Below are positions 34,231 to 47,427 of a stretch of 62,137 nucleotides of DNA, one piece after another. The stretch comes from Spirochaetia bacterium (GTDB lineage: Bacteria > Spirochaetota > Spirochaetia > CADAEX01). The DNA lies in NCBI GenBank assembly GCA_017535435.1, contig JAFXTY010000049.1, positions 1-62,137 of the forward strand, in the 5' to 3' direction. Below the pieces are notes generated by a model, which was given only the letters and a program-made list of their open reading frames with translations, made no database searches and was not told the DNA's origin. The position numbers and the translations under genes are program-made. Within the stretch, counting starts at the first letter, position 1. Each line of letters opens with the position of its first letter.

Positions 34231-34298
34231 AAACATAACATAGTCCGAATAAAACAGTAATTTTCTCCTATCGGTTATAAAAATTGAAATCATATAAT
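34231..34298 (+). promoter_or_regulatory. Duplicated 40-bp activator site and -10 box, copy 1
   Basis: The 40-bp stretch at 34231-34270 (begins AAACATAACATAGTCCGAA) recurs at 36015-36054 with one mismatch. In both, exactly 22 bp separate it from TATAAT (34293-34298 here), and there is no -35 box. This fits a binding site for the AraC-type response regulator encoded at 45113-45838. Confidence 0.7.
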
Positions 34299-34317
34299 TT
34301 AATAAAGGAGATGGGGA

Positions 34318-35355
34318 ATGAAGATCTTCTTTTCTGCAGAATATGATGAAAAAGAACTGAAGCCTTTGTATGAGCTGGGAGATGTGGACAAACAGGGCTG
34401 GGCCCTGGGCCTTCCTAAATTCAGCGAAGATGAGCTTGTAGCCAAGACCATAGATGCAGATATCATTATAACAAGTTATGATGATATAACCAGAAAAGTC
34501 ATTGAGAGAGCCCCGAATCTGAAACTGATTGCCTGCACAAGGGCAACCCCGGTCAATGTTGATATGCAGGCGGCCAAGGAAAGAAACATCCCTGTCATTT
34601 ACACTCCTGGTAGAAATTCAGACTGTACTGCCGAGATGACAATAGGCCTTATGCTGGCAGTTGCCCGTAACATTCCCCAGACATACCGGGCTCTGAAGGA
34701 AGGCAGATATACTGCAGATCCTGAATTCCGCAAAGAAACACATGCAGGACTGAAGAAAGATGTAATATGGGACATGACTATGGATTCTCCCTATATGGTC
34801 TTCAAGGGGACACAGCTTAAGGGAAAGACCCTGGGCATCCTTGGATATGGCAGCATTGGCCGTCGCGTAGGTAAAATTGCCCGTGCCATAGGTATGGAAC
34901 TTCTTATCTACGACCCTTATGTAGGGGAAATAGATGTGGAGGAGTTCGGTGTACGGAAGGCAGAAAGTGTCGCTGATCTTATGAAAGAATCTGATTTTGT
35001 CACCTGTCATCTGAAGGTCACACCTGAAACTACAGGCATTGTAAGCAGGGAGATGATCTCTCTTATGAAACCGACTGCATATTTCATAAATGCATCAAGA
35101 GGCGCAGTTATTGACGAGGAAGCACTTATAGATGCACTTCGTGAGAAAAAAATACGCGGTGCCGCCTTTGATGTATATTCAAGCGAACCTATACGCAGCA
35201 ACCATCCCTATATAACGGAACTGGACAATGTTGTCATTACACCCCACATCGCCGGAGCAACCGATGATGTCCTGGTAAATCACACCAGGATGATTGTCGC
35301 AGATATAAAACGTTTCCTGAAAGGGGAACACATGCTGTATCAGTATCGCTATTGA
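34318..35355 (+). CDS. D-isomer-specific 2-hydroxyacid dehydrogenase
   Basis: A 345-residue NAD-dependent dehydrogenase. The NAD-binding LGILGYGSIGRRVG is near residue 177; the catalytic Arg is in NASRGAVID, the Glu in the SSEPI region and the His in TPHIAGATD. Such enzymes reduce 2-keto acids or oxidise 2-hydroxyacids. It is followed after 10 bp by a class II aldolase in the same unit, downstream of the shared 40-bp site, suggesting a role in a sugar-acid or tetronate-type pathway. The ribosome-binding site GGAG lies 8 nt before the ATG. Confidence 0.9.
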   Translation: MKIFFSAEYDEKELKPLYELGDVDKQGWALGLPKFSEDELVAKTIDADIIITSYDDITRKVIERAPNLKLIACTRATPVNVDMQAAKERNIPVIYTPGRNSDCTAEMTIGLMLAVARNIPQTYRALKEGRYTADPEFRKETHAGLKKDVIWDMTMDSPYMVFKGTQLKGKTLGILGYGSIGRRVGKIARAIGMELLIYDPYVGEIDVEEFGVRKAESVADLMKESDFVTCHLKVTPETTGIVSREMISLMKPTAYFINASRGAVIDEEALIDALREKKIRGAAFDVYSSEPIRSNHPYITELDNVVITPHIAGATDDVLVNHTRMIVADIKRFLKGEHMLYQYRY

Positions 35356-35365
35356 GGAAAAGAAG

Positions 35366-36022
35366 ATGAACAGAGAAAAAGCAAAGCTGGCACAGGCAGA
35401 AGTCTATAAAACCGCATTGGATATGTACAGCAGCGGCCTGGTCTCTGGCACCTGGGGGAATATCTCTGCCAGAATAGATGAGACATTCATGGTGATCACT
35501 CCGTCGGGAATGGCCTATGAGAGTCTTAGCCCGGATCTGATGGTCGTAGTGAATATGGATACACTGAAGTACGAGGGATCCCTTAAACCTTCTATCGAGG
35601 CAATTGTTCATGCTGATATCTATAAGAATCGGCCCGAAGTGAATGGTATCGTGCATACCCATTCCACATATGCCCTGACAGTGGCAACCGCCAGAAAAGA
35701 AATTCCACCTATCTGCGAGGATCAGGTGCAGATTCTGGGAGGCTCCATACGGGTGGCAGACTATGCCATGCCGGGAACAAAGGAGATGGCGCTTGCCTGT
35801 TTGAAAGCGCTGGACGGCAGGCAGGGAGCCCTGATTGCCAATCATGGGGCTATAAGCTGCGATGTCTCGCTGGCAAAGGCTTTTATCGGATCCCAGATTA
35901 TTGAGAAGACTGCAATGGTCTATATAAATTCTATGGCTATCGGCGGGCCTGTCGAGATATCCCAGAAAGATGTGGCCTTTTTTTCAGATTTCTTCCGTAA
36001 TAAATACGGACAAAAAACATAA
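35366..36022 (+). CDS. Class II aldolase/adducin family protein
   Basis: A 218-residue zinc aldolase or epimerase related to L-fuculose-1-phosphate aldolase, L-ribulose-5-phosphate 4-epimerase and OtnC-type decarboxylases. The zinc ligands are in VHTHST (His residues near 92-94) and NHGA; the catalytic acid lies in SIEAIVHA. Together with the preceding dehydrogenase it probably cleaves or decarboxylates a phosphorylated sugar acid. The last codons overlap the second copy of the 40-bp site. Confidence 0.88.
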   Translation: MNREKAKLAQAEVYKTALDMYSSGLVSGTWGNISARIDETFMVITPSGMAYESLSPDLMVVVNMDTLKYEGSLKPSIEAIVHADIYKNRPEVNGIVHTHSTYALTVATARKEIPPICEDQVQILGGSIRVADYAMPGTKEMALACLKALDGRQGALIANHGAISCDVSLAKAFIGSQIIEKTAMVYINSMAIGGPVEISQKDVAFFSDFFRNKYGQKT

Positions 36023-36082
36023 CATAGTCCGAACAAAACAGTAATTTTCTCCTAACCCCTCCTCTTTTCCCTGCCATATAAT
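36015..36082 (+). promoter_or_regulatory. Duplicated 40-bp activator site and -10 box, copy 2
   Basis: 36015-36054 equals 34231-34270 with one mismatch (C for T at 36034). TATAAT (36077-36082) follows after exactly 22 bp. It drives the ABC transporter unit starting at 36103. Confidence 0.7.
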
Positions 36083-36102
36083 TTCAGCAAAAGGAGATGA
36101 AA

Positions 36103-38148
36103 ATGAAGAAACTAACATTTACCTGTTTGATGCTTTTCATAGCATTGAGCCTGTTTGCCGGCGGTAAAGGCGAAAAGGCCTCAGGCAGCGCAAGTAAAGC
36201 TTCTAAATCCAACAGCAGCGCTCCTACAATCGCAGACATGAAGGGAATACCTGAAGGAAAATACAAAGGACAGTATGACCTTGCAGAGTATGAAAAACTG
36301 AGCGGCAAAAAGCTTGAGTTCAAGCAGAACCCGATCTTTGACAACGCTGGACTTCCACCGGTAGCAGACAGACTGCCAAAGGACGTTCTTGTTCTTCCTC
36401 CATACAATGATATCGGAAAATATGGCGGAACATACAGAGCTATGTCCAGAGGACCTGAGTCTGGAACATCAGAAGTTCTTTCCATACGCCATGTAAACCT
36501 GGTAAGGATGACAGATGACCTTAAGGCTATTGTTCCAGATATTGCAAAAGATTATGAATGGAACAGCGACTTCACAGAGCTTACATTCCATCTGAGAGAA
36601 GGACACAAGTGGTCTGACGGTGAGCCTTTCACAACAGAAGATATCCGCTTCTGGTGGGAAGACATCAAACTTAACAAAGAGCTTACAGGAAAAGTAAACA
36701 GCTTGTTCAGATTCGGCGGAGAGCCTATGAAGGTTACAGTTGTAGACAAATACACTGTAAAGTTCGGATTCAGCGTACCAGCTCCTGGATTCCTGCTCAT
36801 GCTTGCAAGCTACTACTGCCAGCCATTCCAGCCAAAGCATGTTCTTATGAAATATCATAAGAAATACAATCCAGATGTAGACAAACTGGCCGCTTCCTTA
36901 GGATTCGAGAACTGGGTAATGCTTTTCGGCGTTTATTATAACGACTGGAAAGACTGTGTTCATTGCCTGTCCGGCAAGCTCCCTGTTGCTGTACCGACAC
37001 TGGAATCCCATGTTCTGGTTGAGGAGACAACAGAGCACAGACTGTTCAAAGCCAACCCATTCTATCATATTGTAGATACAGCAGGAAACCAGCTTCCATA
37101 CACCAATGAGATTGATGAAGTATTCCACGAGGATCAGGAAATCATGACCCTTAAGGTATTGAACGGCGAAGTTGACCGCAAGAACCAGGGTATGAGCCTG
37201 CAGCAGTACACTGCTCTTAAAGAGAATGAATCAAAGGGACTGTATAAGGTTAAGCTTATCCAGAACGGCCTGACATCTGCAAAAACATTTGCTCTCAACC
37301 CGACCCACAAGGATCCAGTTCTCAGAGAGCTCTTCAACAATATCAAGTTCAAGCAGGCATTGTCACTGGCTCTGAACAGAGATGAGATCAACGAGATTGT
37401 TTACCTTGGAATCGGTACTCCAGCACAGTACACACCAGGTAACCCATTGACCTGTTCCTTCATCACACCAGAGATGACCAAATATATGGCAGAGTACAAT
37501 CCAGAGAAGTCAAAGGCTCTCCTGGATGAGATCGGCCTCAAGACTGGCAAGGACGGTTTCCGCCTGCGCCCAGATGGCAAGCCTCTGGTAATCTATGCAA
37601 CATTCACAACTCAGGGCTCACCTGCAATCATGGTTGAGATGCTTAAAGAGTATTGGGATGCTATCGGTGTAAGAACAGAGATCAAGGAAGTAAACACTGA
37701 CCTGTATAAGCAGCTTCTGGCTAACAATGACCATGATATCGGAATATTCTCTCCTACAACAACTGAGATTTCAAGTTTCTACAACAGAGAGTATTCTCCA
37801 TTCATTCCTGAGTTCGGAGACTCATTCGGCTGCGGAGTTGAATGGCTGAATTGGTACAATACCAACGGAAAGGAAGGCATGGAGCCACCTAAGGATGTAA
37901 AGAAACTCTTTAACCTGTATGAGAAGTTCCTGACAACTGAGTTCGGTACTCCGGAATATTACAAACTGGCTGGACAGATGTCAGAAATTGTAGTTAAGAA
38001 CCTGTTCCTGATCGGTACAGTTTATGACCTCAAGGGACCAATAGTAGTTGGATCCAGACTTAAGAACGCAATCGATCCTGCTATGAAGGGATACACATAC
38101 TACTACGAATATTCAATAAAACCATGTCAGTGGTACCTTGAACAGTAA
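36103..38148 (+). CDS. ABC transporter substrate-binding protein, family 5
   Basis: A 681-residue family 5 periplasmic binding protein. The start at 36103 is 6 nt after AAGGAG; an ATG at 36097 would touch that site. The signal peptide ends in LFAGG and the protein has no lipobox Cys. The family signature is in the WSDGEPFTTEDIRFWWE segment and IKFKQALSLALNRDEI. At this size, and next to isomerases and an aldolase, an oligosaccharide or sugar-derived ligand is more likely than a peptide. First gene of the importer operon. Confidence 0.9.
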   Translation: MKKLTFTCLMLFIALSLFAGGKGEKASGSASKASKSNSSAPTIADMKGIPEGKYKGQYDLAEYEKLSGKKLEFKQNPIFDNAGLPPVADRLPKDVLVLPPYNDIGKYGGTYRAMSRGPESGTSEVLSIRHVNLVRMTDDLKAIVPDIAKDYEWNSDFTELTFHLREGHKWSDGEPFTTEDIRFWWEDIKLNKELTGKVNSLFRFGGEPMKVTVVDKYTVKFGFSVPAPGFLLMLASYYCQPFQPKHVLMKYHKKYNPDVDKLAASLGFENWVMLFGVYYNDWKDCVHCLSGKLPVAVPTLESHVLVEETTEHRLFKANPFYHIVDTAGNQLPYTNEIDEVFHEDQEIMTLKVLNGEVDRKNQGMSLQQYTALKENESKGLYKVKLIQNGLTSAKTFALNPTHKDPVLRELFNNIKFKQALSLALNRDEINEIVYLGIGTPAQYTPGNPLTCSFITPEMTKYMAEYNPEKSKALLDEIGLKTGKDGFRLRPDGKPLVIYATFTTQGSPAIMVEMLKEYWDAIGVRTEIKEVNTDLYKQLLANNDHDIGIFSPTTTEISSFYNREYSPFIPEFGDSFGCGVEWLNWYNTNGKEGMEPPKDVKKLFNLYEKFLTTEFGTPEYYKLAGQMSEIVVKNLFLIGTVYDLKGPIVVGSRLKNAIDPAMKGYTYYYEYSIKPCQWYLEQ

Positions 38149-38157
38149 TTATCTTCC

Positions 38158-38189
38158 GCTGCACTGCCCACCGGCAGTGCAGCCTTTTT
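38158..38189 (+). terminator. Intra-operon terminator/attenuator
   Basis: An 11-bp perfect stem GCTGCACTGCC (38158-38168) / GGCAGTGCAGC (38173-38183) and a CTTTTT tail lie between the binding-protein gene and the first permease gene. Partial termination here would give more binding protein than permease. Confidence 0.85.
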
Positions 38190-38202
38190 AATGGAGATAT
38201 TG

Positions 38203-39198
38203 ATGGTAAATTTCATTCTTAAAAAACTTTTATCGACATTAATCACAATATTCTTTGTTTCCATAGTTGTATTTATAATAATAGAGTTACCCCCAGGAGA
38301 CTTTACAGACAGTTTTGCGGCAGGACGGTCAGATCAAGGCGAAGTGGTCTCTAAGGCTGAAATAGAGAACATGAGAGCACTATATGGATTGGACCGGCCG
38401 GTACATGAACGATATTTCAAATGGATATGGGGCATAGTAAGCCGCGGAGACTTTGGAATATCTTTCAGGTATAAAAGCCCGGTTCTGTTTGTGATCGGTG
38501 AAAGAATATCCTTTACAACTTATCTTGCTCTCCTGACCATGCTTTTTACATATCTGATAGCCATACCTATAGGAATCTATTCTGCCATGCGGCAGTATAC
38601 TTTAGGAGATTATTTCTTCACATTCGCCGGATATCTTGGACTTTCTATTCCATCTTTCCTGCTGGCATTGCTTCTCCTATACTTCAGCACAAAGTATACC
38701 CATACCACTGTAGGTGGCCTCTTCTCGCCGGAATTCAAGAATGCGGCCTGGAGCATGGCAAAGGTAGTGGACATGCTCAAGCATATCTGGGTTGCTGCTG
38801 TAGTTCTGGCTGTGGCAGGAACTGCAAAGGTAATAAGAACCTTGCGCGCCACACTGCTGGATGAGAAAAGCAAGCTGTATGTGACAGCTGCTAAGGCCAG
38901 AGGTGTATCGGGAAATGCCCTGATTATGAAATACCCTGTCAGAGCTGCAATGAACCCCATTGCCAGTACCCTTGGCTGGGAACTTTCATATGTAATTTCC
39001 GGTTCCCCTATTGTAGCAGTTGTCCTCTCTATCCCAGACATGGGACCGCTATATCTTACAGCTCTCTTAAGCCAGGACATGTACCTTGCAGGAACGCTGC
39101 TTATCTTTATGAGCCTGATGACAATTATCGGAACCTTTGTTTCTGATATCCTTCTTGCCATCTTGGATCCAAGAATCAGACTGGGGATAAAGATATGA
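38203..39198 (+). CDS. ABC transporter permease, DppB-like
   Basis: A 331-residue inner-membrane permease. The start at 38203 is 4 nt after GGAGAT. Six helices are visible; the N-terminal LLSTLITIFFVSIVVFIIIEL and the binding-protein-dependent transport motif (RTLRATLLDEKSKLYVTAAKARGVSGNALIMKYP region), including the EAA-like AAKARG, are typical of DppB. It overlaps the next permease gene by 4 bp. Confidence 0.93.
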   Translation: MVNFILKKLLSTLITIFFVSIVVFIIIELPPGDFTDSFAAGRSDQGEVVSKAEIENMRALYGLDRPVHERYFKWIWGIVSRGDFGISFRYKSPVLFVIGERISFTTYLALLTMLFTYLIAIPIGIYSAMRQYTLGDYFFTFAGYLGLSIPSFLLALLLLYFSTKYTHTTVGGLFSPEFKNAAWSMAKVVDMLKHIWVAAVVLAVAGTAKVIRTLRATLLDEKSKLYVTAAKARGVSGNALIMKYPVRAAMNPIASTLGWELSYVISGSPIVAVVLSIPDMGPLYLTALLSQDMYLAGTLLIFMSLMTIIGTFVSDILLAILDPRIRLGIKI

Positions 39199-40310
39199 AG
39201 ATACAAGACGATAATTCAAAAATCAAATATTATACCGCGTCCCAATGGCAGCTCATCTGGTGGAGATTCCGCAAACACAGACTTTCAATCGTCGGAATAA
39301 CAATTCTTTCTATATTCCTCATATTTGCCCTGTTCCCTGAATTCTTTGCCCCCTATGGCCCCACCCAGAGAAATGGGGAAAATGTATTCTGCCCTCCTTC
39401 AAAAGTAGTATTCAAAAACGAAGATGGAAAATTCTCTCCTGTTCCACATGTCTATGGCTTCAAAAGAGAAAGGAACAAGGAAACCCTCAAGATGGAATAT
39501 GTGGTTGATGAGACCAATATGCAGCCGCTTAAATTCTTTGTGAAAGGGGAAAAGTATAAGCTTTTCGGAATCCTGCCAGGTTCCATTCATATCTATGGTG
39601 TGGAGAAAGGATTTGTCCACCTGTGGGGAACTGATAACATGGCCAGGGATGTTTTCTCCCGTACTATATTTGCCACCAGGAGTTCTCTCTCCATCGGTGT
39701 CCTGGGTCTTTTCATCGCATTTGTAATTGGCCTTGTCATAGGTGGTATTTCGGGCTACTTCGGAGGATGGGTAGATAACTTCATCCAGCGCCTGACCGAA
39801 TTCATACGTTCTATTCCTACCTATCCGCTGTGGATGGGTGTTGCGGCCGCCATGCCCAAGGAATGGAGCCCCAAGACAGTTTACTTCATGATGACCATAA
39901 TCCTGGGATTTATCGGCTGGACCACCCTGGCCCGCCGTATAAGAAGCCAGATCATATCTATCCGGGAAGCAGACTTCATAATAGCTGCAAAGCTGTGTGG
40001 AGCCAGTGACATGCGCATTATATTCAAGCATATGATACCTACTTTCATAAGCTATATCATAGTTGACCTGACTATATCGTTCCCTAACATGATATTGAGC
40101 GAGACCTCCCTGAGCTTCCTGGGCTTGGGCCTCAGACCGCCGGTGACCAGCTGGGGAGTTCTGCTTAAGGCGGCACAGAATATAGATACTATAATGAGCA
40201 GCCCATGGATGCTTATTCCTTCTATCTTTGTAATACTTGCAGTTCTCTCATTCAGCTTTGTAGGCGACGGACTCAGAGATGCTGCCGACCCTTATTCAGA
40301 AAAGTCTTGA
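39195..40310 (+). CDS. ABC transporter permease, DppC-like
   Basis: A 371-residue permease with an N-terminal helix (RLSIVGITILSIFLIFALF), a long extracytoplasmic insertion of about 80 residues with DGKFSPVPHVYGF, and the C-terminal five-helix core with the EAA motif AAKLCGASDMRIIFKHM. Permeases with such an insertion often belong to sugar-type importers. The long insert could contact the binding protein. Confidence 0.92.
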   Translation: MKIQDDNSKIKYYTASQWQLIWWRFRKHRLSIVGITILSIFLIFALFPEFFAPYGPTQRNGENVFCPPSKVVFKNEDGKFSPVPHVYGFKRERNKETLKMEYVVDETNMQPLKFFVKGEKYKLFGILPGSIHIYGVEKGFVHLWGTDNMARDVFSRTIFATRSSLSIGVLGLFIAFVIGLVIGGISGYFGGWVDNFIQRLTEFIRSIPTYPLWMGVAAAMPKEWSPKTVYFMMTIILGFIGWTTLARRIRSQIISIREADFIIAAKLCGASDMRIIFKHMIPTFISYIIVDLTISFPNMILSETSLSFLGLGLRPPVTSWGVLLKAAQNIDTIMSSPWMLIPSIFVILAVLSFSFVGDGLRDAADPYSEKS

Positions 40311-40318
40311 GGTGAATT

Positions 40319-41326
40319 ATGGATGAAAAAACACTGCTTGAAGTAAAAGATTTATCAGTATATTTCAACCTTAGGGAAGGTGTATTGAAGGCTGTCGATG
40401 GAGTAAGCTTCAACGTTGACAGAAATTCGACTGTGGGAATTGTAGGAGAAAGCGGATCCGGGAAAAGTGTGACAGCCCAGGCCTTCATGCGAATTCTGCC
40501 CGAGACAGCAGAGATAAAGACCGGTGAGATCAACTATTATAAAGATCCTGACAATCCTATAAAAATTCATGCTCTTCCCGACAGAAGCCCTATCCTAAGC
40601 AATATCAGAGGCAAAGAGATAAGCATGATATTCCAAGAGCCTATGAGCGCCTTCTCGCCGCTCCACACCATAGGACATCAGATGATCGAATGCCTTATGC
40701 TCCACACCCCCATGACAAAGCAGGAGGCCCGAGAGCGGTCGATAGAGATGCTGGCAAAGGTGGGAATATCGAATCCGGATAAGCGTATAGACCAGTACTC
40801 CTTTGAGCTGTCCGGCGGTATGCGGCAGAGAGCCATGATCGCAATTGCCCTCTCCACAAATCCTTCCATAGTCATAGCTGATGAGCCCACCACATCCTTG
40901 GACGTGACAATACAGGCACAGATACTTAAGCTTATGAAGGATATGCAGGAAGAGTTCAACATGAGCATCATCTTCATAACCCATAACCTGGGTGTAATTG
41001 CCCAGATGGCAGATATGATACAGGTTATGTACCTGGGCAAGATAATGGAAGCCGGAACTGCCGAGGAGATTTTCTACGAGCCCCGGCATCCTTATACCAT
41101 CAACCTGCTCAAGGCTATACCGAAGATAGGAAGCCATGTGAACAGCAGACTGGAAGCAATACCAGGCCAGATACCTGGTCCGTTTGATGTCCAGAAAGGG
41201 TGCAAGTTCTGCACCAGGTGCCCTTCGATGATAAAAGGACTGTGCGACCTCAGGACCCCTGATATCAAAAAGTACTCAGACACACACAGCGTATACTGCT
41301 GGAGATGCCTTGAACAGGAGAAATAG
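40319..41326 (+). CDS. ABC transporter ATP-binding protein, DppD-like
   Basis: A 335-residue ATPase. Walker A GESGSGKS, signature LSGGMRQR, and Walker B VIADEPTTSLD are present. The C-terminal oligopeptide-transport domain has a Cys cluster, GCKFCTRCPSMIKGLCDL, with four Cys in the pattern known from DppD/OppD, where a cluster or zinc may bind. It is 8 bp after the permease gene. Confidence 0.94.
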   Translation: MDEKTLLEVKDLSVYFNLREGVLKAVDGVSFNVDRNSTVGIVGESGSGKSVTAQAFMRILPETAEIKTGEINYYKDPDNPIKIHALPDRSPILSNIRGKEISMIFQEPMSAFSPLHTIGHQMIECLMLHTPMTKQEARERSIEMLAKVGISNPDKRIDQYSFELSGGMRQRAMIAIALSTNPSIVIADEPTTSLDVTIQAQILKLMKDMQEEFNMSIIFITHNLGVIAQMADMIQVMYLGKIMEAGTAEEIFYEPRHPYTINLLKAIPKIGSHVNSRLEAIPGQIPGPFDVQKGCKFCTRCPSMIKGLCDLRTPDIKKYSDTHSVYCWRCLEQEK

Positions 41327-41328
41327 AT

Positions 41329-42339
41329 ATGGAAGACAACATTCTTGTGGTAAAAAACTTAAGCAAAGAATTTCCTATTTATAAAGGTTTTCTCAGAAAA
41401 AGCACCATGTCTGTAAAGGCTGTGAACAATGTCTCCTTCGAGATAAAACGGGGCGAGACTCTGGGGCTTGTGGGCGAGAGTGGCTCGGGAAAGACCACAT
41501 TGGGGCGTCTTATTCTGCGTGCTATAGAGCCTACCTCCGGAGAAGTGATTTATAATTTCTCCGATGAGAATCAGGTGGATTTCCTTAAGCTGAACAAAAA
41601 GCAGCTGAAGAAAACCAGGACAAAGATTCAGATGGTATTCCAGGATCCATACTCATCTTTGAATCCAAGAATGACAGTCCGGGATATAATTGCAGAGACT
41701 CTGGTGGCAAACAAGACCATGAGCCGAAATGAGATTGATGAACGGGTCCGGGAAATTGCAGATCTCTGTAAGCTTAACCTGGAGCATTTAAGGCGTTTCC
41801 CCCACGCCTTCTCCGGCGGCCAGCGCCAAAGAATCGGCATAGCCAGAGCACTGGCCGTAAACCCGGAGTTTGTAGTGTGTGATGAATCAGTATCGGCCCT
41901 TGATGTGTCGGTTCAGGCCGAAATCATCAACCTGTTCAAGGAGATGCAGGCAATCAAGGACATCACCTACCTTTTCATTGCCCATGACCTGAGCATCGTA
42001 GAGCATATAAGCGACAGAATCATTGTAATGTACCTGGGGCAGATTGTGGAAGAAGCCGACAAGAGGACTCTGTTCGAGAACCCGATGCATCCATACACCG
42101 AGGCACTTATGTCTGCAATCCCGGAGCCTGATCTACTCCGCAAGATGGCACCTATCTTCCTGGAGGGTGAGATTCCGAACCCTATGAACCTTCCTACAGG
42201 ATGCTATTTCCACCCGAGGTGCCACTATGCAACAGAGAAGTGCAGGAAGGAAATGCCCTGCATGCGCTGTTTCGGCAACCACAAGGTGGCCTGTCATCGT
42301 GCAGAAGAACTTCATTTAAAGCAATACATTAAATATTAA
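41329..42339 (+). CDS. ABC transporter ATP-binding protein, DppF-like
   Basis: A 336-residue ATPase with Walker [10 protein letters not shown], signature [10 protein letters not shown], and Walker [12 protein letters not shown]. The C-terminal domain also has Cys residues ([15 protein letters not shown]). It completes the importer and is followed after 18 bp by three isomerase genes in the same unit. Confidence 0.94.
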
Positions 42340-42357: not shown

Positions 42358-43254
42358 ATGGAAAACAATCTTAAGAATTTGCGTTTTGTTCCCTGCTACG
42401 ATGGTTTTCTTTCTGGCAATAAATCTGCCTCTGAGATTATCGACATCTGTAAGACTTCCGGTTTCTACGGAATCGAAGGACATGCTGAATACGGCATATT
42501 CAACGGCACCATAGAAGAACTTACCAAGACAGGAGAGGCTTTCAAGGCTGCCGGACTTTCTTTGGACACATATCATCTTCCATGGGAAGACAAGGAACTG
42601 GACGATATCTCTAACCTCTATGAATGCGACCGCCGCAGAGTTGTTGAAAAAGCAAAGCGGTGGATAGAGAAGGCTGTGGCTGTGGGCAGCTCCATCGGAA
42701 TAATGCATCCATGCAACCGCCGCCGCCATAACGGACTCCTCTGCTACGATGTAGCAGTCGAAGGTGAAGACCGCATTTTCGGGCAGGTTCATAAATCCCT
42801 TCAGGATCTCTTGAAGTTCTGCGAGCAGTTCAATTTCAAGATTGCAGTTGAGAACTTTGTTCCATATTCCGGTGGTATGCTTGGAAGCCGTAACGAACAT
42901 ATGACCAGGATATACGAGGAGAACAAGCACCCTCTATTAGGTTTCTGTCTTGATACAGGCCATGCCCTTATGGCATACGGGAAAGATGTGATGAGCGCTT
43001 ACTATGCTATGGAAGAGCATATAATTGCATTCCACCTGGCAGACAATGCCGGAGACAGAGATTCCCATATCCTTCCTGGTCATGGCAACTTCCCATGGGG
43101 TGACTTCTTCAAGGCTCTGAACAAACGGGGATTCACAGGCAATGTCTGCGTAGAGACTCCTCCCTTTGACATAGGGCCAAACTACTCAATGGAAGCATGG
43201 TGCAAGATGTTCAGAGAACTTAATGAACTGGTGGAGAAATCCCTGGAGGAATAA
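42358..43254 (+). CDS. Sugar phosphate isomerase/epimerase-like TIM barrel, paralogue 1
   Basis: A 298-residue AP endonuclease 2-type TIM barrel. Metal or substrate residues are in AVENFVPYSGG, LDTGHALMAYGK, FHLADNAGDRDSHILPGHGNFPW, and VETPPFDIG. These enzymes interconvert or hydrolyse sugars and sugar derivatives with a divalent metal. The central Cys-rich stretch present in some relatives is absent. It is the first of three tandem, clearly related copies that follow the importer genes. Confidence 0.87.
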   Translation: MENNLKNLRFVPCYDGFLSGNKSASEIIDICKTSGFYGIEGHAEYGIFNGTIEELTKTGEAFKAAGLSLDTYHLPWEDKELDDISNLYECDRRRVVEKAKRWIEKAVAVGSSIGIMHPCNRRRHNGLLCYDVAVEGEDRIFGQVHKSLQDLLKFCEQFNFKIAVENFVPYSGGMLGSRNEHMTRIYEENKHPLLGFCLDTGHALMAYGKDVMSAYYAMEEHIIAFHLADNAGDRDSHILPGHGNFPWGDFFKALNKRGFTGNVCVETPPFDIGPNYSMEAWCKMFRELNELVEKSLEE

Positions 43255-44154
43255 TTGGAAAACAACATTAAGAATTTACACTTTGTACCATCCTATGATA
43301 CAGGCGTCATGCAGTCCAAAACCACTCCCGAGGAAATAATTGAGCTGTGTCTTAAAGCAGGCTTCTACGGAATAGAAGGAATTTCTGGAGAAGGTTTTTT
43401 CAATGGATCTATCGAGGAAGTCACCAAGATCGGCGAAGCCTTCAAGGCGGCAGGCCTTTCCATAGGCACGTTCCATCTTCCGTACAGTCATGCAGAGATG
43501 AATGATATAGCAAACCTGTATGAATGCGACCGCAGAAGAGTTGTGGAGAACGTAAAGAGATGGATTGAGAAAGCTGTTGCAGCAGGAAGCTCCATAGGAA
43601 TAATCCACCCTTGTTCACGCCGCCGCTGGAACGGTCTTGAGAGCTATGACGTCAAGATTGAAGGCGAGGACAGACTTTTCGGCCAGGTGAGCAAATCGCT
43701 CCAGGAGCTTTTAAAATTCGGAGAGCAGTTCGGTTTCAAGATTGCAGTGGAGAATATAGAGCCATACGGAGGCTGCATGCTGGGACACCGGGGAGAGCAC
43801 CTCAAGAGAATTTACCAGGAGAACAAGCACCCCAACCTGGGTTTCTGCCTTGATACAGGACACGCACTTATGGCATATGGATATGATGTGATGGATCTTT
43901 ATCATGATATGGAGGAACACCTTATAGCCTTCCATCTGGCTGACAACGCAGGCGACCGGGATTCTCATATCCTGCCGGGACATGGCAACTTCCCCTGGGG
44001 TGACTTCTTCAAAGCTCTTAATAAACGGGGATTCAAAGGCAATGTATGTGTAGAGGCGCCACCCTTCGACATAGGTCCTAAATATTCCGATGAATCCTGG
44101 TGCCAGATGTTCAGGGAAATGAATGAACTAGTTGAAAAATCTCTGGAGAATTAA
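43255..44154 (+). CDS. Sugar phosphate isomerase/epimerase-like TIM barrel, paralogue 2
   Basis: A 299-residue homologue of the preceding gene, starting with TTG directly after its stop; GGAGGA lies 5 nt before. The metal-site motifs are conserved (FHLADNAGDRDSHILPGHGNFPW), but the loop after AVEN reads IEPYGGC rather than FVPYSGG, and SHAEMNDIANLYE replaces the corresponding segment. This suggests a different ligand or step within the same pathway. Confidence 0.86.
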   Translation: MENNIKNLHFVPSYDTGVMQSKTTPEEIIELCLKAGFYGIEGISGEGFFNGSIEEVTKIGEAFKAAGLSIGTFHLPYSHAEMNDIANLYECDRRRVVENVKRWIEKAVAAGSSIGIIHPCSRRRWNGLESYDVKIEGEDRLFGQVSKSLQELLKFGEQFGFKIAVENIEPYGGCMLGHRGEHLKRIYQENKHPNLGFCLDTGHALMAYGYDVMDLYHDMEEHLIAFHLADNAGDRDSHILPGHGNFPWGDFFKALNKRGFKGNVCVEAPPFDIGPKYSDESWCQMFREMNELVEKSLEN

Positions 44155-44155
44155 C

Positions 44156-45055
44156 ATGGAAAACAGAATAAAGAATTTACACTTTTGTCCTTCGTATGAT
44201 GGCTTTGTCGCTGGTAACAAATCTGTATCCGAGACCATCGACATCTGCAGGAAAGCTGGATTCTATGGAATAGAAGGCTGGGCAGATCATGGATTTTTCA
44301 CAGGTTCCCTGAAGGATTTTACCAAACTGGGCGAAGCCTTCAAGGCGGCTGGACTGGTGATAAACACCTTTCATCTGCCGTATGAACAACCTGTTTTGGA
44401 TGATATTGCAACTTTGTACGAGCTGGACAGGACCAGGGTTGTAGAAAGGATGAAATATTGGATTGAGCGGGCTGCGGCATGCGGAGCCAAGATAGGTATT
44501 CTCCATCCTACTACCAGAGCGGCCATCAATGGTCTAAGCTGCTATGATGCTGATAAAGAGGGTCTGGACAAGCTTTGCGGACAGGCTAATAAATCGCTGC
44601 AGGCTATGCTTAAGTTTGGCGAGCAGTTCGGTTTCAAGATTGCAATCGAGAACATGCCGCCCCGTTCCGGTGGCCGGCTGGGCAGCAGGAATGAGCATAT
44701 GATAAAGCTGTATGAAGAGAACAAGCATCCCAATTTAGGCTTCTGTCTCGATACTGGACACGCCCTGTTATCATATGGAAAAGATGCAATGAAAGCCTAC
44801 TATGCTATGGAAGAACACCTTATCGCTTTCCACCTGGCCGATAATGCAGGGGACAGGGATTCTCACCTGCTGCCGGGGCATGGACACTTCCCATGGAACG
44901 ACTTCTTCAAGGCTCTTAATAAAAGAGGATTCAGCGATACTGTATGCGTAGAAACACCACCCTTCGACATCGGTCCTGATTTTTCAACAGATGCATGGTG
45001 CAACATGTTCAAGGAACTTAATGAGCTAGTCGATAAATCTTTTAAAGAGAATTAG
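44156..45055 (+). CDS. Sugar phosphate isomerase/epimerase-like TIM barrel, paralogue 3
   Basis: A 299-residue third copy. The ATG at 44156, 7 nt after GGAG, gives the same N-terminus (MENRIKNLHFCPSYDG) as its two neighbours, so it is preferred over the upstream ATG at 44132. It is the most diverged: AIENMPPRSGGRLG, RTRVVERMKYWIERAAAC, and GHGHFPWNDFF. All metal-site motifs are kept. A strong terminator closes the operon 29 bp later. Confidence 0.87.
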   Translation: MENRIKNLHFCPSYDGFVAGNKSVSETIDICRKAGFYGIEGWADHGFFTGSLKDFTKLGEAFKAAGLVINTFHLPYEQPVLDDIATLYELDRTRVVERMKYWIERAAACGAKIGILHPTTRAAINGLSCYDADKEGLDKLCGQANKSLQAMLKFGEQFGFKIAIENMPPRSGGRLGSRNEHMIKLYEENKHPNLGFCLDTGHALLSYGKDAMKAYYAMEEHLIAFHLADNAGDRDSHLLPGHGHFPWNDFFKALNKRGFSDTVCVETPPFDIGPDFSTDAWCNMFKELNELVDKSFKEN

Positions 45056-45083: not shown

Positions 45084-45114
45084 CCCTCCTGTGTAAAAGC
45101 AGGAGGGTTTTTTT
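45084..45114 (+). terminator. Rho-independent terminator of the importer-isomerase operon
   Basis: CCCTCCTG (45084-45091), 8-nt loop, CAGGAGGG (45100-45107), seven T. Confidence 0.95.
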
Positions 45115-45838
45115 ATCTGCGGCTGTCTCTGAACTCTATAGGGGTGAAACCTGTATATTTCTTGAACAGCCTGCCGAAGTAAGAAGGGTCGTCATATCCC
45201 ACTTTTTCTGAAACATCATAAGCTTTCTGCTCTGTCTCCAGAAGCATCTTCTTCGCTTCTTCCATCCGTATCCTGATAAGATAATCCCAGATGGTCACCC
45301 CTGTCTCTTTCTTGAAGATGTTGCAGAAATAATTCTTGCTCAGAGAGACATAGTTGGATATTTTATTCAGATTTATATCCTCTTGGAAATTCTTTTCGAT
45401 ATACTCACAGGCCAGCCTTACCGGCAGGGTATAATTGACAGAATCCCCATGCTCTGCCTGCTTTAAGTTCTGGTTGATATTTATAATCGCTTTATTGAGA
45501 AGATCCTTGAGCTCTGCCTCGTTGATAGGCTTAAGCAGATACCCGGTCACTCCGAAATCAAGCGCCTTCCTGGCATATTCAAAGGTACCATAAGCTGTAA
45601 GAATAATAATCTCGCAGTTGTAGCTGTTGGTCTTGATCCACTCTATAAGCTCAAAGCCGTCAATACCGGGCATCATTATATCGGTAAGGACAATATCGGG
45701 CATCTCCTGCTTGATCTTATCCATTGCCGCTACGGCACTCTCGGCATATTCCGGCACAATGTCAAAAGATTTCCAGTCTATAGTCGCCTTGACTATCTCG
45801 AAGCTGGTCGGTTCATCATCAATCATCAATAATCGCAT
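45113..45838 (-). CDS. Response regulator with AraC-type DNA-binding domain (YesN-like)
   Basis: A 241-residue regulator. The receiver domain has DDEPTS at the N-terminus, the phospho-accepting Asp55 in VLTDIMMPGIDG, and Lys in GYLLKPI. The C-terminal AraC/XylS helix-turn-helix pair runs from about residue 135 (CEYIEKNFQEDINLNKIS) to DPSYFGRLFKKYTGFTPIEFR. It overlaps the sensor gene by 13 bp. It is a natural candidate for binding the 40-bp sites at 34231 and 36015, since the operon converges on this gene pair. Confidence 0.93.
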   Translation of the reverse strand: MRLLMIDDEPTSFEIVKATIDWKSFDIVPEYAESAVAAMDKIKQEMPDIVLTDIMMPGIDGFELIEWIKTNSYNCEIIILTAYGTFEYARKALDFGVTGYLLKPINEAELKDLLNKAIININQNLKQAEHGDSVNYTLPVRLACEYIEKNFQEDINLNKISNYVSLSKNYFCNIFKKETGVTIWDYLIRIRMEEAKKMLLETEQKAYDVSEKVGYDDPSYFGRLFKKYTGFTPIEFRDSRR

Positions 45839-47427
45839 AGCTCATCCGGTATCCTTATAGTTATCGTAGTACCTTCCCCTATCCTGGAGCTGATACTTAG
45901 TCCATATCTGATTCCATATTGCATCTTTATCCTGCTGCTTACATTTATAAGTCCAAGGTTGTGGGAGAAACCCACTGCTTTTTCAGCCTCAAGGCACCCC
46001 TGGATATACTTGAGTCTTCCCTCTTCTATACCATTTCCATTATCGGCAATCACAAAGGATGTCACCCGGCTGCTGCTGGAGACTGAAATCTTTATTTCAA
46101 GGGGCCTGTCTGCTCTGAATCCATACTTGATGGAATTCTCCACCACTGGCTGCAGAAGCAGCTTGAGGGTCTGATGGCTCAGGAGCTTTTCAGGGCACTC
46201 CACAGAAAGAAAAATATTCTTCTTGAACCGTATCTGGTTTATTGCCACATAGTTTCTGACACTCTCCAGCTCTTCCTTTACAGAGACCTTCTTATCCTGG
46301 TCATAAAGCCCGTAGTGCATAAGATTCCCAAGGGTGTCGATTGTCTTGATGATATCTGCATTCTGGCCGTTCACAGCCATAAGCTTAAGCGAATTCAATG
46401 TGTTCAGAAGGAAATGAGGATTGATCTGGTCCTGGAGTGTCTTTATATTCGCCTGTGTGGCAAGTATCTCCTTCTCATAGACTTCCTTGGTGAGATTGGA
46501 AACTTTCTCTATCATCATATCCAGTTTGTCGCTCAGATCCTCTATCTCCTGATAGCTGTCATCGTGGAGCTTTATGTCAAACCGTCCCCGGGATATGAAT
46601 GTTATAAGCTCCTTCATGCGGTTTATAGGATGGAAGACCCTCTTCTCCAGGATTATGTTCTGGATGAAGAGCCATACGAGGAAAACAAGGAATACAACCA
46701 GAATTGATATCTTCAGCTTCGATACATCATCTTCGACCTTGGAGAAATCCACATGGAGCTCGAAATACAGATCATTCTTGAGCGCATATCTGTAGACTCT
46801 GTCATATTCGCTGTTATAGAAATGATTCTCCAGAGTTATATAGTTTTTTGCAGAATCATATATCATGGATTTCTCCAGGACAGCACCTGCATTCTTCAAT
46901 GTAGCCAGGAGACCGTTTATATATGTCCTGTCCAGGAAGACGATGATAAAAAGATTATTCTCCAGCGGGTAAATGATTGATATCTCCTCATATGTGGAGG
47001 AATCATATAAATCCCTGACCGGTGATGTGGAGAAGAAGTATGAATCACTGTTGCTCTGGAAACTGCCTGATGGGAAGAAGGTACCGGGATTCACTGGATA
47101 ATATCGTACCGGGACAGGATATTTTCCATGGGTTTTCTCCAGGAAGCCTGAACGGAGCACTGCCTTGGATTTGGATATCGCTCCAATCTTTCTTTCCATA
47201 GGAGTGTCTGAACTGATTATCTTGAGAAATGATTCGGCAGTGTTGTCAAAGAACATGTCCAGATATTTTGCAGTCATCTGAACTTCGTTCTCATACTTGG
47301 AGTTGTTTATGTCATATATGATAGTGATTGATACATTATAGACAATGATAAATATGGAGAACAGTAGAAGGAGAAGGGAGATGATGGCGTGCCTGAAAAT
47401 AATGTTCTTAAGGCTTCTGCCTGTCAC
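45826..47427 (-). CDS. Sensor histidine kinase, YesM-like
   Basis: A 533-residue membrane sensor. An N-terminal helix (residues 12-33), a periplasmic region to about residue 235, a second helix (ILVVFLVFLVWLFIQNI), a HAMP domain, then the YesM-type kinase with phospho-accepting His in QINPHFLLNTLNSLKLM, the N box VVENSIKYGF, and the G1 box DNGNGIEEG. YesMN systems commonly sense carbohydrates and control nearby uptake genes, which fits here. Confidence 0.92.
   Translation of the reverse strand: MTGRSLKNIIFRHAIISLLLLLFSIFIIVYNVSITIIYDINNSKYENEVQMTAKYLDMFFDNTAESFLKIISSDTPMERKIGAISKSKAVLRSGFLEKTHGKYPVPVRYYPVNPGTFFPSGSFQSNSDSYFFSTSPVRDLYDSSTYEEISIIYPLENNLFIIVFLDRTYINGLLATLKNAGAVLEKSMIYDSAKNYITLENHFYNSEYDRVYRYALKNDLYFELHVDFSKVEDDVSKLKISILVVFLVFLVWLFIQNIILEKRVFHPINRMKELITFISRGRFDIKLHDDSYQEIEDLSDKLDMMIEKVSNLTKEVYEKEILATQANIKTLQDQINPHFLLNTLNSLKLMAVNGQNADIIKTIDTLGNLMHYGLYDQDKKVSVKEELESVRNYVAINQIRFKKNIFLSVECPEKLLSHQTLKLLLQPVVENSIKYGFRADRPLEIKISVSSSSRVTSFVIADNGNGIEEGRLKYIQGCLEAEKAVGFSHNLGLINVSSRIKMQYGIRYGLSISSRIGEGTTITIRIPDELCDY

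Follow-up and report, generated by a model that had tools for sequence, protein, structure and literature searches.

A duplicated putative operator at two promoters beside an AraC-type two-component system in a gut spirochaete

Background

At the araBAD promoter of E. coli, AraC occupies two direct half-sites (I1-I2) that lie about 21 bp apart, with the nearer one at -35. Related DNA-binding domains also occur in response regulators. The AraC-type two-component regulators of Caldicellulosiruptor bescii have tandem-repeat sites with large spacers, which lie upstream of promoter elements in three of five systems, and the proteins are predicted to be activators (PMC8579813). In XydS/XydR of Clostridium (Ruminiclostridium) cellulolyticum, an AraC/XylS-type response regulator and its kinase control adjacent plant-polysaccharide genes (PMC3572039).

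The locus described here lies on a contig of 62,137 nucleotides (the window), part of a 1.70-Mb Spirochaetia MAG (G000) of 82 contigs and 99% completeness, which was compared with six congeners (G001-G006). The window is of ruminant-gut origin, and its AraC-type response regulator is found at 83-88% identity on contigs of other ruminant-gut Spirochaetia MAGs. Two almost identical 40-bp blocks precede two promoters of the locus. From sequence comparison, the duplicated block is very probably an operator, plausibly made of two half-sites, for the phosphorylated form of the YesN-type regulator encoded at 45113-45838, which would activate both promoters.

The two sites and their promoters

The first-pass annotation described two 40-bp sequences, at 34231-34270 and 36015-36054, that differ at one base and are each followed by 22 bp and TATAAT. 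The single difference is borne out (T/C), and the spacing is exact, with TATAAT beginning at 34293 and 36077. The features are:

34231-34270, forward strand: site 1, putative operator for the dehydrogenase-aldolase unit, with 34234-34270 as its conserved core
34293-34298, forward strand: -10 hexamer of promoter 1 (TATAAT), 22 bp beyond site 1
36015-36054, forward strand: site 2, putative operator for the importer unit, with 36018-36054 as its conserved core
36077-36082, forward strand: -10 hexamer of promoter 2 (TATAAT), 22 bp beyond site 2

The aldolase gene ends within site 2, its stop codon being the TAA at 36020-36022. A match to the core never arose in dinucleotide shuffles of the window. 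The search for further genomic copies that the annotation had proposed as a check returned just these two in the 1.70-Mb genome, with up to three mismatches allowed, and a whole-genome scan with a sequence-only profile built from all known sites likewise found no third site (66 and 63 bits vs. 10 for the next best). A match of 18 bits in G005 (C95) looks like chance; it falls where a small, lipoprotein-like reading frame begins.

Neither promoter has a recognizable -35 box, as had been claimed: in a comparison with chance covering the two window promoters, the best -35-like hexamers at 15-19 bp spacing agree at 2 and 3 of 6 positions, vs. a random mean of 2.9. Each -10 element was also said to be followed by GGAG and an ATG, and both motifs are present (GGAG at 34307 and ATG at 34318; GGAG at 36093 and ATG at 36097 or 36103). 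Since ATG 36097 immediately adjoins the Shine-Dalgarno GGAG at 36093, and importer orthologues align from residue 3 (that is, they begin at the codon equivalent to ATG 36103), the true start of the importer gene is probably 36103 rather than 36097.

Gene content of the locus

The two promoters precede genes for a putative catabolic pair and for an ABC importer with isomerase-like proteins:

34318-35355, forward strand: D-2-hydroxyacid dehydrogenase, dh (PF02826/PF00389)
35366-36022, forward strand: class II aldolase family protein, ald (PF00596), with its stop codon within site 2
36097-38148, forward strand: family 5 solute-binding protein, sbp (PF00496), with the likely start at 36103
38191-42339, forward strand: oppB, oppC, oppD and oppF, importer permeases and ATPases
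42358-45055, forward strand: xi1-xi3, three paralogous xylose-isomerase-like TIM-barrel proteins (PF01261)

The three xi paralogues match one another at 66-77%, and paralogue number varies among the genomes, with three in G000, G003 and G006 and two in G002 and G004. Among solved proteins, T. maritima OppA (5IPW) and pectin-binding SPH1118 (PMC9314435) come nearest to sbp, which suggests that the ligand of the importer may be an oligosaccharide. The SPH1118 match pointed to pectin as the substrate, but this candidate was set aside, KduI and GH88/105 being absent from the genome.

Conservation of the core and its distance to the -10 element

The site is found in five of the six congeners, for a total of eight sites in six genomes when G000 is included; outside the genus, a search of 91 genomes from its family and class found none. 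Alignment of all eight defines a 37-bp core, CATAACATAGTCCGAAYAAAACAGTAATTTTCTCCTA, and in every one of them TATAAT or TATACT stands exactly 22 bp past the site. Pairwise identity averages 0.95 for the core and 0.42 for the 22-bp spacer, of which the length is kept and the letters are not. The sbp gene that follows exists as two alleles that are just 53-58% identical to each other at four-fold degenerate sites, and the core is therefore under strong constraint. The distance from the -10 element to the start codon ranges across the genomes from 6 to 31 bp. A spacer of constant length and variable sequence, together with this variable distance downstream, is what would be expected of an operator-promoter unit acting at the DNA level, not of a leader RNA. 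The dehydrogenase promoter of G006 (L122:3328-3342) reads TATACTGATAATATG; its start codon begins 6 bp past the -10 element, and the mRNA may therefore be leaderless.

Half-site anatomy

Within each core, two direct half-sites may be discerned:

34236-34248, forward strand: distal putative half-site of site 1, TAACATAGTCCGA, a direct repeat with 34258-34270
34258-34270, forward strand: proximal putative half-site of site 1, TAATTTTCTCCTA, centred near -41 of the presumed transcription start
36020-36032, forward strand: distal putative half-site of site 2, on the direct-repeat reading
36042-36054, forward strand: proximal putative half-site of site 2, on the same reading

The repeat has a period of 22 and identity at 8 of 13 positions; it was chosen by eye, and a permutation guided in this way gives p 0.0043. 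Variable columns of the alignment cluster between the half-sites, with four of six in the 9-bp linker (Fisher p 0.022). An unguided period scan of the core for direct repeats was not significant (p 0.87), and a core made of two direct half-sites 22 bp apart is for that reason plausible rather than proven. The site adjoins the -35 location of promoters that are poor in this element. On the assumption of a transcription start 7 bp beyond the -10 element (34305), the core would end at -35, as in the geometry of class II activators.

The regulator and its kinase

Downstream of the isomerase genes, on the opposite strand, are two overlapping reading frames:

45113-45838, reverse strand: response regulator of the YesN kind, receiver plus AraC-type double HTH (PF00072 and PF12833 above cut-offs), the proposed activator
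45826-47427, reverse strand: YesM-type sensor histidine kinase (His_kinase PF06580 plus HATPase)

The response regulator is the sole HTH_18 protein of the genome in G000, G002, G003, G004 and G006. Among these five orthologues, residues 162-180 and 214-233, which include both recognition helices, are invariant, and identity in the interdomain linker is 46-71%; the phosphoacceptor aspartate, assigned by sequence position as D53, is present in all five. The predicted structure of the kinase (mean pLDDT 45) is too poor for its sensor fold to be assigned.

The order site-sbp-oppBCDF-isomerases-regulator-kinase is kept wherever contigs are long enough; the G003 locus is divided between two contigs. 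In G005 the site is present and no HTH_18 protein was found in the assembly. The contig of this genome stops within the isomerase genes, and its regulator is thus probably just unassembled. G001 has no HTH_18/AraC protein, the kinase and regulator do not come after alr there, and the site and importer are also absent. This joint absence of site and regulator amounts to one event, the whole locus being missing, and weighs little alone.

The annotation's choice of the linked AraC-type two-component system as candidate activator gains support from the regulator's status as sole HTH_18 protein, its kept linkage, the co-absence in G001, the conserved site and its distance to the -10 element, and a position like that of class II activator sites.

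Evolution of the locus

In G002, G004 and G005 a single site lies between eamA and sbp. The dehydrogenase-aldolase pair occurs only in G000, G003 and G006, at the same eamA-sbp position, and has its own copy of the site in G000 and G006. The proposed regulon of dehydrogenase-aldolase plus importer-isomerases thus holds in these two genomes and not in G003, whose dehydrogenase gene has a -10 element and no site; it begins 34 bp after eamA and retains TATAATTTC and a Shine-Dalgarno sequence.

The sbp-oppB-oppC block has 93-95% DNA identity among G000, G003 and G006 (together with the dehydrogenase-aldolase pair, window 34318-40310), and in their flanking genes G003 and G006 stand no nearer to G000 than the other species do; because the block is near-identical while its neighbours are no closer, it seems to have moved between species. 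The junction of eamA and the site carries, in three congeners, pieces of large polyvalent or phage-type proteins (L122:1216-3240, L120:4455-5219 and L117:5192-5617, all on the reverse strand; ART-PolyVal plus LPD3, LPD3, and MuF_C), and the 3' end of eamA is present a second time just upstream of the site in G004 and G006. It is as if DNA inserted repeatedly at the end of this gene.

The importer leader of G000, from the -10 element to the start codon (window 36077-36110), is of the dehydrogenase type, unlike that of all congeners: its alignment score is 22 against the G003 dehydrogenase leader and 3 against the G003 importer leader. The likeness of the two G000 promoters (TATAATTT...GGAGATG) is for this reason probably due in part to recent copying. 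Copying of the leader would not explain the core and the 22-bp distance, since both recur in every species and with either type of leader.

Proposed mechanism and alternatives

In the proposed mechanism, the kinase (45826-47427) would signal to the response regulator (45113-45838), of which two molecules, presumably as a dimer, would occupy the direct half-sites, the nearer reaching up to the point at which a -35 box would start. The bound regulators would recruit RNA polymerase to promoters that have a good -10 element and no -35 element. Promoter 1 would drive the dehydrogenase-aldolase pair, and promoter 2 the oligosaccharide-type ABC importer and three isomerase-like proteins. The second operator-promoter would have come with the dehydrogenase-aldolase pair as it joined an older importer-regulator locus.

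Other readings of the same DNA have to be weighed. The site might be bound by another regulator encoded elsewhere, whether one-component or a different response regulator, with the linked two-component system controlling something else or acting indirectly. There are other receiver-domain proteins in the genome, and G005 has the site with no regulator in its assembly; against this, the genome encodes no second AraC-HTH protein, the site occurs nowhere else in it, AraC-type activators typically have a long site in two parts at the -35 position, and the regulator is linked to the site in every genome with a sufficient contig, all of which makes this reading unlikely. It is less likely still that the regulator binds the site and represses, or plays a dual role. 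Some AraC-family proteins do repress when their signal is absent, and the site adjoins the promoter. It ends upstream of the -10 element, however, and leaves the start uncovered, and promoters without a -35 element should be weak unaided. AraC-type regulators of such geometry are, moreover, mostly activators (PMC8579813).

There is very little to recommend the idea that the match between the two copies is a mere scar of recent duplication or recombination around the dehydrogenase-aldolase cassette, devoid of a regulatory role. The copies do flank a cassette found in three of the six site-bearing species, and the dehydrogenase-type importer leader of G000 (22 vs. 3) would be a trace of such an event, but species that lack the cassette conserve their one copy equally well, at the same 22 bp from its -10 element; duplication accounts for the origin of the second copy and not for a fixed core beside diverging flanks. 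An equally improbable reading takes the block for part of a longer 5' leader that acts as RNA (a riboswitch or attenuator), as the conservation of non-coding DNA ahead of transport genes might suggest. The block, however, lies upstream of a conserved -10 element at a fixed distance across a variable spacer, and the interval from -10 to start codon varies, down to the possibly leaderless case in G006. The operator reading, with activation by the linked regulator, fits these observations best.

A wider view, to which about even weight for and against is given, is that a reduced gut spirochaete would here have a closed regulon under one factor. The sole AraC-family protein would read the 37-bp site at its own locus alone, and the catabolic genes would have joined through duplication of an entire operator-promoter module, with the module lost again in a sister species.

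Comparison with known systems

The two putative half-sites resemble those of E. coli AraC in being direct and in placing the nearer at -35; the period here is 22 bp. E. coli AraC is a one-component, ligand-binding protein, whereas a phosphorylated receiver domain is proposed here.

A literature search for mapped sites of such kind among AraC-type response regulators yielded nothing closer than the two systems of PMC8579813 and PMC3572039. As in the C. bescii systems (PMC8579813), a kinase and an AraC-HTH response regulator lie beside importer genes, here putatively for a sugar, and the sites may be read as tandem repeats; unlike them, the present case concerns another phylum and other operons, with one AraC protein per genome and two sites. 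XydS/XydR (PMC3572039) shares the pairing of an AraC/XylS-type response regulator with a kinase and the control of adjacent genes, but gave no binding-site consensus, in contrast to the sharply conserved 37-bp core seen here. Predicted activation of adjacent sugar-import genes by AraC-type two-component systems is already known, and knowledge of the mechanism is unchanged by the present case. What a spirochaete lineage known here from MAGs alone would gain is a sharply defined putative operator and a nearly unambiguous predicted pairing of regulator and site, together with sister species that illustrate the gain and loss of such a module, operator and promoter together, as genes join a regulon.
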